Assembly: GCA_003104995.1 (NCBI GenBank)
Contig: PQAO01000022.1
Coordinates: 1 to 64,000 of the forward strand
Source of the DNA: Dehalococcoidia bacterium
Lineage (GTDB): Bacteria > Chloroflexota > Dehalococcoidia > Tepidiformales > Tepidiformaceae
Length of the DNA: 64,000 bases
Reading direction: 5' to 3'
The notes under the pieces are model-generated. The model saw nothing but the letters and a program-made list of their open reading frames with translations, made no database searches and was not told the origin of the DNA. Positions 30,226-37,157 of the stretch are shown here, one piece after another. Numbering within the stretch: the stretch's first letter is position 1; each line of letters starts with the position of its first letter. The translations under genes were made by a program, and so were the position numbers.

Positions 30226-31626
30226 CTAACGCGGACGGCGGTACTGGCGCTGCACCGATGGAGCCTCGGGCGACCGGCCGAGGCGGTAGTGCGGAGCGAG
30301 AATGACGAGGATGGTCCCGGCGTGGGGGTCGGCCACGCGGGCGACGATGCGTGGGTGGGCTGCCTGGAGCGCGTCGAGCGACTGGTCGGAAGTCACCACC
30401 GTGGGCAACCCGGCGACGTGGCGGTAGTTGACCACCTGGTAGAGCTTTTCCTGGGCCCACTGGGTGGTGGCCTGGGCGCCGAGGTCGTCGAGGACGAGCA
30501 GATCCACGTTGCGGACGCGGTCGAAGAGCTCGTCGTAGGGGGCTTCCTTGCCCGGCGCAAAGGACGCGCGGAGGTAGTCGAGCAGGTCGGGCACGACGGC
30601 AAAGAAGACGCCCATGCCGCTTGCGAGGGCACGGTTGGCAATAGCGCAGGCGAGGTGGGTCTTGCCGCAGCCGTTGGCGCCCTGGAGGGTGAGCCAGCCG
30701 CGGGGGTCCTCGGCGAAGGCCATGGAGGCGCGGAAGGCGGCTTCGAGCGACTCGCGCTCTTCAGCGCGGAGGCCGGGGGCCCGCAAATCGAAGTTGCGGA
30801 ACTGGAGTTCGGCAAGGCGTTCGCGGGTCATCCCGCCGACCTGTGAGTAGCCGGCCTTACCCGCGCCATCGAGCACGAGCACGCGTGACAGTGCTTCGTC
30901 GCAGAGGCGGGTGGCCAGGCGCTCGTCGAGCTGTTGCGGGCGGGTGGTGGTGGTGAAGACGGTGGGCAAGCCGGTGTTGTAGCGGTGGTTCACGACCTGG
31001 AGAAGCTTCTCCTTGGCCCACGGCGTGCCGGATCCGGAGTCGATGTCGTCGAGCACGAGGAGGGGGGCGTTGCGTACCTGGTCGAAGAGCTGGTCGAAGC
31101 CGAGGTCCTCGTCGCCCGCTTCGTAGCTGGCACGGAGGGCATCGAGGAGGTCGGGCACGACCATGAAGAGGACGGGCTGGCCGGAGGCGATGCGCTCGTT
31201 GGCGAGGGCGGCGGCCAGGTGGGTCTTGCCGCTGCCGGAGCTGCCGGTGAGGACGAGCCAGCCTTCGGGGTTGGCGGCGTATTCGCGGGCCGCTGTGAAT
31301 GCTCGCTGGAACCAGTCGCTTTCGCCGGTGCGGCCGGTTGGCACAAGGGACTCGAAGGTGAAGCGGCGGAGGGCGCCGATGTTGCTGATGCGCTCGAGGC
31401 GGCCGCGGCGGACGGTCTCCTCTTCGGAGAGGACACAATCGCAGGGCTCCGCCTTGCCAAAGCGGGGGTGGTCGACCGGATAGGAGCGGCGGACGAAGCC
31501 AGCGCCGCCGCAGATGGGGCAGAGCTGGGCCTCAGGCTCGTCAGCGATAGCGGACGACGTGGCCGAGACTTCCCCCGAGGTAGCGGCGTTTTTGGTCTTC
31601 GAAAGAATCTCGTCCAGCCGTTTCAT
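30226..31626 (-). CDS. Double DnaC/DnaI-like AAA+ ATPase with zinc motif
   Basis: This 466-aa protein has a Cys cluster (Cys36, Cys39, Cys62, Cys64) followed by two AAA+ modules in tandem. Module 1 has Walker A GSSGSGKT (128-135) and Walker B LLVLDDID (189-196). Module 2 has GANGCGKT (316-323) and LLVLDDLG (376-383). The modules resemble each other closely and match DnaC/DnaI/IstB helicase-loader ATPases. Its place next to dnaB and a DnaD-like gene argues for helicase loading rather than transposition. GGAGGGAC precedes the ATG. Its first 86 bases overlap the DnaD-like gene. Confidence 0.85.
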   Translation of the reverse strand: MKRLDEILSKTKNAATSGEVSATSSAIADEPEAQLCPICGGAGFVRRSYPVDHPRFGKAEPCDCVLSEEETVRRGRLERISNIGALRRFTFESLVPTGRTGESDWFQRAFTAAREYAANPEGWLVLTGSSGSGKTHLAAALANERIASGQPVLFMVVPDLLDALRASYEAGDEDLGFDQLFDQVRNAPLLVLDDIDSGSGTPWAKEKLLQVVNHRYNTGLPTVFTTTTRPQQLDERLATRLCDEALSRVLVLDGAGKAGYSQVGGMTRERLAELQFRNFDLRAPGLRAEERESLEAAFRASMAFAEDPRGWLTLQGANGCGKTHLACAIANRALASGMGVFFAVVPDLLDYLRASFAPGKEAPYDELFDRVRNVDLLVLDDLGAQATTQWAQEKLYQVVNYRHVAGLPTVVTSDQSLDALQAAHPRIVARVADPHAGTILVILAPHYRLGRSPEAPSVQRQYRRPR

Positions 31627-32266
31627 TGGGGCGTCCCTCCTCGGCCCAGTTGCGCAGGATGCGCTCGATGTAGCGCCAGTTGCGGATGTTGAGTTCGGCC
31701 GCCTCGCGGAAGGCGTCCTCGATCCATTCCGGCGAGTAGGTCTCCTCGGCTTCGACGAGCCTGTCGCCAATCATGGGGGTAATCGTGCCGATGTGCTCTT
31801 CGTAGAGGCGGAAGATGCCGGGACGCTCCTCGCGGAGCGTGAGTGGACGGGCTGCCGTGTCCGGGCGGATGCGGAGCTCGCCGGCGCGTGCGCGGGCAAC
31901 GGCACGGCGGGATCCCGGGTTGTTCAGGAAGTACACGGCCCCGGGTTCGGGGCCGCCGGTGAGTTCGAGCCCAAGAAGAGCGCGCAGTTCGACGCAGCGG
32001 AGGAGGCCAGCATTGAGCCCCTCGCGGCCGCCACCGATGGTTTCGAAGCTTTCGCGGGCGGCTGGATGGCTCCAGATTTCTTCGGCCGCGACGCAGCGGG
32101 CATCGCCGCGTTGTTCCTGAACCAGCCGGGCGACCCAGAGGAACGAGAGGAGGGCGCCGGGCGAATCGAGGCGGGGCAGGACGGCCGCGAAAAACAGGTT
32201 CGGAATGGCCGTCGCCTTGCCGATGCCCGGGAACCCGGTGAAGCCGTCGTCAGTCGCGGATGTCAT
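31541..32266 (-). CDS. DnaD-like primosome protein
   Basis: This 241-aa protein has an N-terminal winged-helix-like part (FLWVARLVQEQRGDARCVAAEEIW) and a C-terminal DnaD-type helical domain (IGDRLVEAEETYSPEWIEDAF then AAELNIRNWRYIERILRNWAEEG), with the YxxxIxxxW pattern typical of DnaD/DnaB primosome domains. It probably helps load the replicative helicase. The ATG at 32264-32266 overlaps dnaB by 17 bases. The C-terminal 29 codons overlap the AAA+ loader gene in another frame. Confidence 0.8.
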   Translation of the reverse strand: MTSATDDGFTGFPGIGKATAIPNLFFAAVLPRLDSPGALLSFLWVARLVQEQRGDARCVAAEEIWSHPAARESFETIGGGREGLNAGLLRCVELRALLGLELTGGPEPGAVYFLNNPGSRRAVARARAGELRIRPDTAARPLTLREERPGIFRLYEEHIGTITPMIGDRLVEAEETYSPEWIEDAFREAAELNIRNWRYIERILRNWAEEGRPNETAGRDSFEDQKRRYLGGSLGHVVRYR

Positions 32267-34558: not shown

Positions 34559-36130
34559 CTACCGTGATGTCACGTAGATCTCTTCCGCCTGGCTCCCGCT
34601 GTCCCGATCCACGCCCCGGACCACGTAGGCAATGTGCCGGCCATCCGCCGACAGCGCGGGCGCCTCGTAGGTGACTTCCAGATTTGCACCCGGCACAGCC
34701 GACTGGAAGCGGTACGGGAATTCGGCAGTGAACCGAGTGTCGTGCCCGAAGGGGTCCATCAGGACGATCCGGGGCCCGGCCGGGGGCCGCAGGTGGTCGA
34801 CGTAGGCGAGGGCAGCGCCTCCAGCGGTGTACCAGGTGTCGAACGTCACTTCGTTCGTGGCGCCGAGCTCGGCCAGCTCCCCTGTGGCGGGGTTGTAGCT
34901 GGCCAGCCGAGACTCGATCAGGCGCTGGCCCCCGGACCCTGTGAGCACCGGATCAAGGACCGTGTAGGTGAAGACCACGCCGCTATCCGTGAGAGATTGC
35001 GAGAAGGGGCTGAGCCTGGCGACTGTCCCGGCGGGCTGCGCGACGGGCACACAGTGGGTGCCACCATCCCGGAGGTCATGGACGAACAGGCGCTGCTCGT
35101 CCTGAACAGTGCCGTCCTGGATGCGTGCGGAACCAATCACCGGGCAGGTGCTCTCATCGACGCCCGGGGCGCGGACTGCCCGGAATGAGAGCCATCGCCC
35201 ATCGGGCGAGATGAGCGGCCAGTCCAGGACGGACACTGTTCCCATGGGGAACTCCAGACCCCACACCTCGGCACCGGTCTCGCGGTCGTATACAGTGAGC
35301 CGCGCGCCCGAGACCGCCGGAGCCACGGCGAAACCATCAACGACCACCGCGTTCGGCGGCCAACGGAGGACCGCATAGGCAACGAGCCTTCCGTCGGCGG
35401 TGATCGACGGCCCCAGCGCGGGCGACCCCGGAAGCGTCTCAGTGGCACCCGAGTCCATGTCGCGGACGATCACTTCGGGCGCCGGAGTATCTCCAGCCGC
35501 AAGCCTCGATGCGACCATCGCGATGAAGCGGCCGTCTTGGCTCACGCTCGGGTTGCTGTAGCCGAGGGTGCGCCAATCGGGCGGGAAGTCGCTCACGAGT
35601 TCGGTCTGGCGCGTTACGCGATCGAATCGGAAGACGTCAGACTCACCGTCGGTATCGGCAGCGACGAACTCATCGGTCGGGCTGGCAAAGACGACATAGC
35701 GGCCGTCGCCGGAGAGCACGGGCGGCTCGACACGGGCGTGCATCGGACGGCCGTCGTAGGTCCTGGTGATGACGCCATCGTAAAAGCCGGGCGCTTGTTC
35801 GACGAATAGCGAGCCGGCCGCCAGGCCGCCGGCCACGACAACGGCGGCTCCTCCCAGCGCGAACCGTCCAAAAATCGGCACGGCGAGCCAGGTGCGCCGC
35901 AGCCTCGATGGAGCCCGCCAGCCGGCGAGCTGTTCGCGGCTGTCGAGTCCGAGCTTCCCGAGCATGTTCGATACGTGGTACTTCACGGCATCGGGAGACA
36001 CCCCGAGCCGCACCGCGATCTCAGCATTGGTCTTGCCCGCCCTGATGTGATCTAGGACGCGCTCTTCGGCGGGGGTGAGCAGCGGATAGGGTGGGCGGCC
36101 ACGCGGGCGCCCGGTCGGTTGCGTTGACAT
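34559..36130 (-). CDS. LuxR-type HTH protein with membrane span and beta-propeller
   Basis: This 523-aa protein starts with a LuxR-type helix-turn-helix (about 17-71, LTPAEERVLDHIRAGKTNAE then GVSPDAVKYHVSNMLGKL), followed by a membrane span (about 88-110). A large extracytoplasmic region follows (130-523) with repeated SxDGRYVVF/SxDGRFIAM-like blades of the TolB/PD40 propeller type. The N-terminal DNA-binding and outside sensor layout recalls ToxR/CadC-like one-component membrane regulators, but with a LuxR HTH. The ligand and targets are unknown. A TAGACT hexamer ends six bases before the ATG, suggesting a leaderless mRNA. Confidence 0.85.
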   Translation of the reverse strand: MSTQPTGRPRGRPPYPLLTPAEERVLDHIRAGKTNAEIAVRLGVSPDAVKYHVSNMLGKLGLDSREQLAGWRAPSRLRRTWLAVPIFGRFALGGAAVVVAGGLAAGSLFVEQAPGFYDGVITRTYDGRPMHARVEPPVLSGDGRYVVFASPTDEFVAADTDGESDVFRFDRVTRQTELVSDFPPDWRTLGYSNPSVSQDGRFIAMVASRLAAGDTPAPEVIVRDMDSGATETLPGSPALGPSITADGRLVAYAVLRWPPNAVVVDGFAVAPAVSGARLTVYDRETGAEVWGLEFPMGTVSVLDWPLISPDGRWLSFRAVRAPGVDESTCPVIGSARIQDGTVQDEQRLFVHDLRDGGTHCVPVAQPAGTVARLSPFSQSLTDSGVVFTYTVLDPVLTGSGGQRLIESRLASYNPATGELAELGATNEVTFDTWYTAGGAALAYVDHLRPPAGPRIVLMDPFGHDTRFTAEFPYRFQSAVPGANLEVTYEAPALSADGRHIAYVVRGVDRDSGSQAEEIYVTSR

Positions 36131-36136
36131 GGGGCG

Positions 36137-36142
36137 AGTCTA
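36137..36142 (-). promoter_or_regulatory. Putative -10 element of a leaderless transcript (LuxR-propeller gene)
   Basis: TAGACT on the minus strand ends six bases before the ATG; no ribosome site is present. Confidence 0.4.
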
Positions 36143-36165
36143 GGACGAACGCCGCCCGATTTACC

Positions 36166-36939
36166 CTACCCGGCCCGCAATTCGGCGATCGCGAAGCGGG
36201 CGAAGGCACCGGCCAGGGGGAGGGTGGTCGATGGGTCGGGCACTTTGGCAGGCGGCGCCGACCGCCAGGCGAGGGCGGCACGGATGAGGCCCGCCCATTC
36301 GGGGTAGCGCACCGCCGCCCAGGCGGCGGCTCGCATCTTGGAGACGTGGGCGCGGTGCGTGGCGGTGTAGAGCGTCCGGCAAAGGGTGAGAATCGCGTAA
36401 CCGTGCGACTTCGTGGTGTCGAGGTGTTTCACCCACTCGCCCCACGAGAAGGCATGGTCGCGAACGGCGGTGATGAACTCGTCGATGGACACCGGGGCAA
36501 TAAACGTATCGGGTGGCGGTCCAGCGAGCGTGACCCCGTGGTCGAGGATGAGCCACCAGTTCATCAACCAGTCGATGCCGGCCGTCTTCGTGTTGAGCGG
36601 TTCTCCGGGGCTGATGACGGTGATGGGGCTGCGTTCGGTGCGGAAGGTCGCGAGGGCGTGGCGCGAGAGATAGAGGACTTCCACGCGATCGCGCCAGGCG
36701 GTGTGAGCTTCGGCGATGCCGGTGTGTACCGTTTCGAGTGCTTCGAATTCCGCCTGCTGGAGGTCCGAGGGGAGGACCGCCAGCAGGTCCACGTCGCTGA
36801 CGCCGGGATCGTAGTCGCCGAAGACAGCCGAACCGTAGAGGTACAGCCCCAGCAAGCGTTCGCGCAGTGAGTCCCGCAGGGCAGGCACGAGGTCTTCGAG
36901 CAGGAAGGACACATCAGCCGGAACCGGGGGACGGTCCAT
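36166..36939 (-). CDS. Aminoglycoside-type nucleotidyltransferase (DUF4111)
   Basis: This 257-aa protein has the nucleotidyltransferase core: Gly36-Ser37, then Asp49-x-Asp51 (SDVDLL). A C-terminal helical DUF4111-like domain follows. The layout is that of streptomycin/spectinomycin adenylyltransferases such as AadA, but divergent enough that drug modification is not certain. The ATG at 36937-36939 is chosen by homology; the open frame runs further upstream. A TATCAT hexamer lies about 30 bases before it. A second such gene is at 44.0 kb. Confidence 0.8.
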   Translation of the reverse strand: MDRPPVPADVSFLLEDLVPALRDSLRERLLGLYLYGSAVFGDYDPGVSDVDLLAVLPSDLQQAEFEALETVHTGIAEAHTAWRDRVEVLYLSRHALATFRTERSPITVISPGEPLNTKTAGIDWLMNWWLILDHGVTLAGPPPDTFIAPVSIDEFITAVRDHAFSWGEWVKHLDTTKSHGYAILTLCRTLYTATHRAHVSKMRAAAWAAVRYPEWAGLIRAALAWRSAPPAKVPDPSTTLPLAGAFARFAIAELRAG

Positions 36940-37157
36940 TTCGAGGCCTTGATGGATTGGGGTTTGGCCATGATAGCGCTCGCGCTTGGGGAGGGCACAG
37001 GGGCCACTCCGGGGGGATTCCTGGTGGCCCGAATAACAGGGCCTCGTCGCACTCTCCGCGGTCCAACACGTTGCGGAATGGGGGATTCGGGGCACAGAAT
37101 GGCCGGCCGAAGCGCAGTCCAGGTGTTGCGTCAAGCCCCTTCTTGGAGGAGCGAACT

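Follow-up and report, generated by a model that had tools for sequence, protein, structure and literature searches.

The window, a stretch of 64,000 nucleotides from a Dehalococcoidia bacterium of the Tepidiformaceae (contig PQAO01000022.1 of assembly GCA_003104995.1), contains a gene, P0001, that codes for a putative membrane-bound regulator formed by an N-terminal DNA-binding domain, a single membrane span and a C-terminal propeller-like domain (Table 1). Directly upstream of P0001 lies a gene for an aminoglycoside nucleotidyltransferase-like protein (AadA_C/NTP_transf_2; 36166-37134). Elsewhere in the window a single ORF (30226-31770), close to dnaB, contains tandem P-loop ATPase (DnaC-like) segments, GSSGSGKTHLA and GANGCGKTHLA.

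Table 1. Features of P0001 and its promoter (positions in the window).
Feature	Position	Strand	Details
CDS P0001, LuxR-HTH / single TM / PD40-TolB-like propeller regulator	34559..36130	-	523 aa, ATG start; orthologue L046/L017 85% identical
LuxR/GerE HTH	35915..36079	-	residues about 18-72; Pfam GerE 2.3e-13; covariation
Recognition helix of the HTH	residues 46-60		covarying residues D47, A48, Y51, S54
Juxtamembrane/TM span	35798..35878	-	residues about 85-111; hydropathy; position common to 80/81 family members
Predicted extracytoplasmic beta-propeller	34562..35794	-	residues 113-523; SxDGR blade repeats; PD40 5.4e-11, shuffles, Foldseek
-10 box TAGACT	36137..36142	-	6 nt before ATG (leaderless promoter), without -35 box
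Candidate operator GGCCGGGTAGGGTAAATCGG	36156..36175	-	starts 45 nt before ATG; overlaps stop codon of the upstream gene; family motif

The initial annotation had proposed that an N-terminal LuxR-type helix-turn-helix (HTH) is joined through the membrane to a propeller. Domain search located the Pfam GerE domain at residues 18-69 (E=2.3e-13, 50 bits against a cut-off of 23.5), in agreement with the first part of this proposal. Receiver, HisKA and HATPase domains were absent in the Pfam scan of P0001, and Trans_reg_C, the OmpR-type winged helix, gave no match up to E=1. The model had been made to depend on a real membrane span, and one was present: the hydropathy profile showed one hydrophobic stretch of membrane length at about residues 82-110 (Kyte-Doolittle maximum 1.96), a position that is matched across the protein family described below, with an R-rich segment ahead of it (residues 72-89) and acidic residues behind. 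The C-terminal region matched PD40 (E=5.4e-11, 42.6 bits against a gathering score of 20.9; best blade at residues 489-519), and matches to Gmad1 and TolB were weak. The motif SxDG[RHK] occurs six times in this region against 0.04 expected, a number that none of 20,000 shuffles reached, and five of the copies lie in blade context (residues 140, 197, 244, 308, and 494). Thus, the PD40/SxDGR blades of the proposed propeller were confirmed, but its length is about 411 residues instead of the about 390 first given.

AlphaFold models of P0001, obtained with two input sequences, were weak (pLDDT 50-54, pTM 0.48-0.56), with a good HTH part (pLDDT about 80-90). Foldseek searches with these weak models gave propellers of the TolB and S9-peptidase/prolyl-oligopeptidase type as best matches; these and the PD40 blades link P0001 to TolB/PD40 and S9-peptidase propellers. 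It differs from TolB in lacking the TolB N-terminal domain and in scoring well under the TolB equivalog cut-off (TIGR02800, 20.4 bits against 343), and from S9 peptidases in lacking the peptidase domain, and the ectodomain was accordingly rejected as a known TolB or peptidase. A full-length orthologue with 85% identity (L046) was found in 'Chloroflexota bacterium isolate KLAP124' (G003). Comparison of both genes gave dN/dS values of 0.06 for the HTH, 0.09 for the juxtamembrane and TM segment, and 0.23 for the ectodomain. Since the orthologue is 85% identical and the dN/dS is low, P0001 is a gene under selection and neither a chance frame nor a misassembly.

The module formed by HTH and span recurs within the genome of P0001 and across the bacterial family to which this genome belongs. 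A profile search of 38 genomes of this Dehalococcoidia-type Chloroflexota family found the module in 30 of them, with up to 21 matches per genome and about 140 in total, some of which are HTH-only proteins or fragments. This survey of the domain order, which the initial annotation had suggested, revealed a large family and no singular chimera. The layout of eighty relatives was compared. In nearly all of them the HTH covers about residues 12-72, a single span follows at about 80-120, and the remaining 50 to about 960 residues are variable. GerE matched all 77 of 77 family members. The family-wide charge was +3.3 ahead of the span and -2.5 behind it, and the charge pattern indicated an N-in orientation in 79 of 80 members, which bore out the inside/outside topology proposed for P0001. 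The N-terminal module is conserved across the family and the ectodomains are varied: RCC1-type (about 11), SH3_3 (9), PD40 (6), and CarboxypepD_reg (4) domains were found, as well as kelch, Vps10/sortilin, LRR, and fn3. All-against-all comparison sorted the ectodomains into 34 groups, and that of P0001 was common only to its orthologue. Among 400 Chloroflexota genomes, high-scoring full-module matches beyond the bacterial family came from a small number of further families within its class, where LuxR-TM-PD40 proteins also occur (L198 and L202). A LuxR-TM-kelch protein (L197) was found elsewhere in the phylum. The relatives found outside Chloroflexota (L050-L055) comprised a MalT-like protein and otherwise ordinary response regulators. 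No description of this HTH-TM-ectodomain family was found in the literature searched, which does not prove that the family is undescribed.

Some members and relatives depart from the common layout. L206 (G449:C111) is a 1234-aa member combining RCC1-like and leucine-rich repeats in one ectodomain. Four short HTH-only or truncated family genes (L227, L230, L203, and L028) keep the operator described below, and they may be either fragments or soluble antagonists. Standalone LuxR HTHs of about 77 aa, with neither span nor operator, were observed in genus g13 (L038, L039, and L040).

A binding-site search at the promoter of P0001 itself, also suggested initially, identified a family motif 45 nt ahead of its ATG, with CGGGTAGGGTAA found exactly at 36161-36172. 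The promoters of the family share a CGGGTAGGG-type element at -45, ahead of a leaderless -10: in more than half of the aligned family genes a -10 type box lies 6 nt ahead of the start codon, which points to leaderless promoters. Motif discovery retrieved cATCGGGTAGGGaAA, with a log-likelihood of 393 against 58-75 for shuffles; the motif begins at -44/-45 and is present in 56 of the 71 non-redundant promoters of the family. No enrichment of -35 boxes was detected in family promoters (2.54 versus 2.32 matches). A promoter scan at P0001 revealed neither a -35 box nor a sigma-70 promoter, and no intrinsic terminator was found around the gene. When the pattern GRGTAGKG-N14-22-TANNNT-N5-7-ATG was searched for in the 38 genomes, 31 of the 45 matches were located by coordinates at family genes, the remaining 14 equalling the 13 obtained with a reversed-pattern control. 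In the genome of P0001, the element was absent ahead of six response regulators. In the sister species carrying L046 the upstream nucleotidyltransferase has been lost save for its last codons, and the operator element and -10 box have been kept. An operon of P0001 with the AadA-like gene was consequently rejected, because the arrangement is not conserved and the orthologue retains the promoter element without that gene. A similar operator at -45 (CGGGGGAGGGTAATTC) was also observed ahead of L003 (in the G000:C12:27522-27761 region), a soluble protein that joins a LuxR-type HTH to an apparent VOC/glyoxalase domain; this operator matches those of family members whose recognition helix is of a similar KFH/RFH type.

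Paralogues of one genome have different operator variants, and a given variant reappears in other genomes together with the same recognition helix. In partial Mantel tests, operator distance was correlated with recognition helix distance (r=0.27; 0/2000 permutations) more than with that of the rest of the HTH (0.09) or the TM (0.08). The operator distance to the partner with the nearest helix was 0.18, against 0.335 +/- 0.014 (sd) after within-genome shuffling of operators. When residue-base pairs were ranked by corrected mutual information, the top four all had their residue in the recognition helix: residue 47 paired with operator position 6, residue 51 with position 9, residue 48 with position 8, and residue 54 with position 3. 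Members with Ser or Thr at residue 51 had GA at operator positions 8-9 in 11 of 11 cases, compared with 1 of 67 for other residues (p=1.5e-12; the exception is L093). When the recognition helix was left out of tree building, at least five changes of the residue-51 class and at least six of the operator were counted on the tree. These associations reappeared in a held-out set of 45 members not used earlier, 39 of which had a scored operator: C accompanied Ala, Ser or Pro at residue 47 in 5/5 cases versus 0/31 for Asp or Glu (p=2.7e-6), and GA accompanied Ser or Thr at residue 51 in 2/2 versus 0/37 (p=0.0013). Three lower-scoring held-out Ser/Thr members (L258, L263, and L264) agreed with the residue-51 rule. 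The correlations are inflated because orthologues inherit gene and promoter together, an effect that the partial Mantel tests, within-genome shuffles, independent switches and held-out set lessen and do not remove. Taken together, the covariation constitutes strong indirect evidence that the family proteins bind DNA and regulate the genes encoding them, and it strengthened the initial reading of P0001 as a one-component membrane regulator, since the operator at its own promoter covaries with its own recognition helix.

The Escherichia coli regulator CsgD (FixJ/LuxR family) has an HTH similar to that of P0001 (NCBIfam CsgD, 2.4e-6, 27 bits against an equivalog cut-off of 250). It differs in being a soluble protein whose HTH lies at the C-terminus, behind an N-terminal pseudo-receiver; the HTH of P0001 is N-terminal. 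The operators of the Ser/Thr-51 class (CGGGkGAkGTAA) resemble CGGGTGAGTTA, the CsgD site upstream of csgB. In E. coli K-12 this element, which contains GA, lies between csgD and csgB, and CsgD carries Thr at position 51. An independent protein thus fits the residue-51 rule.

Regulons were searched for by sequence pattern only. Without the start codon, the pattern gave 40 matches against 6 in the control, including family genes and two family fragments (L227 and L230). Candidate sites were found ahead of exported proteins, namely a secreted propeller lipoprotein (L138) and a lipoprotein (L208), and of signal-peptide or anchored proteins (L224, L212, and L234). Another precedes a signal-peptide protein with a C-terminal hydrophobic anchor (L209, at G000:C24:24471, L213, and L226); this protein is conserved across three species of the genus, and the genome of P0001 is one of those that carry it. 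Five inspected sites had no clear target. In the genome of P0001, CGGGTAGGGwAA exact with a spaced -10 occurred only at the promoter of P0001; the exact operator core was present at four places, with the promoter layout only at P0001's own. L209 has a related site, AGGGTAGGGAAAC, which was not assigned to P0001 because it also occurs in a species without a detected P0001 orthologue. In another genome (G019:C23:133557-158384, the L205/L204 region), several operator copies (ATCGGGTAGTGAATTCGC) were observed within 25 kb around the HTH-TM gene L204, preceding lipoproteins and exported proteins, the secreted propeller L138 among them. This cluster is likely a regulon island.

Membrane one-component regulators of the ToxR/CadC/TcpP type (TTRs) were surveyed by Demey et al. 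(2023; PMC10269533). According to that survey, lineage-specific expansions occur in the class and membrane regulators with non-OmpR HTHs already belong to it; LuxR, GerE and PD40 are unmentioned in its main text. With a DNA-binding domain and a membrane span in one chain, P0001 falls under the structural definition of a one-component TTR (PMC10269533). The family shares with TTRs an N-terminal cytoplasmic DNA-binding domain, a single TM, an extracytoplasmic domain and the lack of kinase or receiver, but it carries a LuxR/GerE HTH where ToxR and CadC have an OmpR-type winged helix. LuxR-type regulators with 10-12 TM, which form an expanded family linked to the control of neighbouring genes, have been described in Eggerthella/Gordonibacter (Coriobacteriia; PMC11585353). 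These share with the P0001 family a LuxR-type HTH in an integral membrane regulator as well as the expansion, and they differ in their 10-12 spans, against one span, an N-terminal HTH and a large extracellular domain. Since both groups are known, a LuxR HTH in place of a winged helix is not by itself unprecedented. The contrast with ToxR/CadC drawn by the initial annotation stood for P0001, which lacks Trans_reg_C, but not for membrane regulators as a class.

We estimate a probability of about 0.74 that P0001 is a single-pass, N-in/C-out one-component regulator of a lineage-expanded family, reading an operator at its own promoter and using its propeller as input. Its cytoplasmic LuxR/CsgD-like HTH would read a CGGGTAGGGwAA-type operator centred near -40. 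Given the good -10, the missing -35 and the leaderless start, class II activation with positive autoregulation would be most likely; activation instead of repression is favoured here by just the missing -35 box and the operator position. A ligand or surface contact at the extracellular propeller may alter how the short juxtamembrane segment dimerises, and thereby the affinity of the HTH. The simplest model likens P0001 to ToxR as a membrane-tethered activator, here with a CsgD-like head; it would raise expression of its own gene when the propeller meets its ligand, and in some species that of surface proteins as well. Physical binding, dimerisation and ligand sensing by P0001 are steps that we infer. 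From their sequences, the family members look like self-regulating surface sensors, each with a site matched to its own DNA-reading residues. More tentatively, they could be self-addressing receptors, in which a DNA-reading head and a matching operator, after duplication, ectodomain replacement and a few helix/operator changes, give rise to new, insulated sensor channels, the receptor itself being the main output in an autogenous display of varied propellers. The changes in question might involve residues 47 and 51 on the protein side and positions 6 and 8-9 on the operator side.

Other explanations were considered. The ectodomain could be the working product, an adhesin or scavenging propeller, with the HTH mainly tuning its own expression to occupancy or amount and with few or no other targets. 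The nearly exclusive occurrence of the operator at family promoters, the single exact operator with -10 in the genome of P0001, and the large, highly varied ectodomains beside a constant module speak for this, but extra sites lie ahead of exported proteins such as L138 and L209/L213/L226, and the searches, which need a strict promoter layout, could miss targets; we consider it rather unlikely. A signal could also lead to proteolytic release of the HTH from the membrane to act as a soluble factor. The short linker between HTH and span and the existence of soluble HTH-only relatives with the same operator type (L028 and L203) speak for this, but these soluble forms may be fragments, and we consider it improbable. 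The element might instead serve an alternative sigma factor as its -35 box, or be bound by a shared master regulator, and not be read by the HTH; its fixed position by the leaderless -10, overlapping the -35 region, would agree with this. A shared sigma factor is disfavoured because of the within-genome covariation, operator classes differing within a genome and tracking each protein's own helix down to residues 47/51, also in held-out members; one operator variant moreover resembles the element upstream of E. coli csgB, and this explanation has very little chance of being correct. Misassembly, or the accidental joining of an HTH frame to an exported protein, which nothing but the unusual domain order suggests, is refuted by the 85% identical orthologue in a separate assembly, the low dN/dS and the about 140 family matches of like layout, and can practically be discarded.

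Although membrane one-component regulators are common, almost all knowledge of them comes from ToxR/CadC. The reading of P0001 as an N-in/C-out regulator of its own promoter would add a compact, lineage-expanded family from uncultured Chloroflexota that combines a LuxR head with one span and diverse propellers and whose promoters directly reveal the operator. The family offers a testable amino acid-to-base recognition rule for LuxR-type HTHs: if the code holds, Y51T or D47A would make P0001 favour CGGGTGAGG-type or C-containing operators over CGGGTAGGG. Its many naturally occurring pairs of receptor and matching operator would also allow one to ask by what means an extracellular domain exerts control over a membrane-tethered HTH, and the family would supply a function class for many proteins otherwise labelled as hypothetical RCC1, kelch or PD40 proteins.
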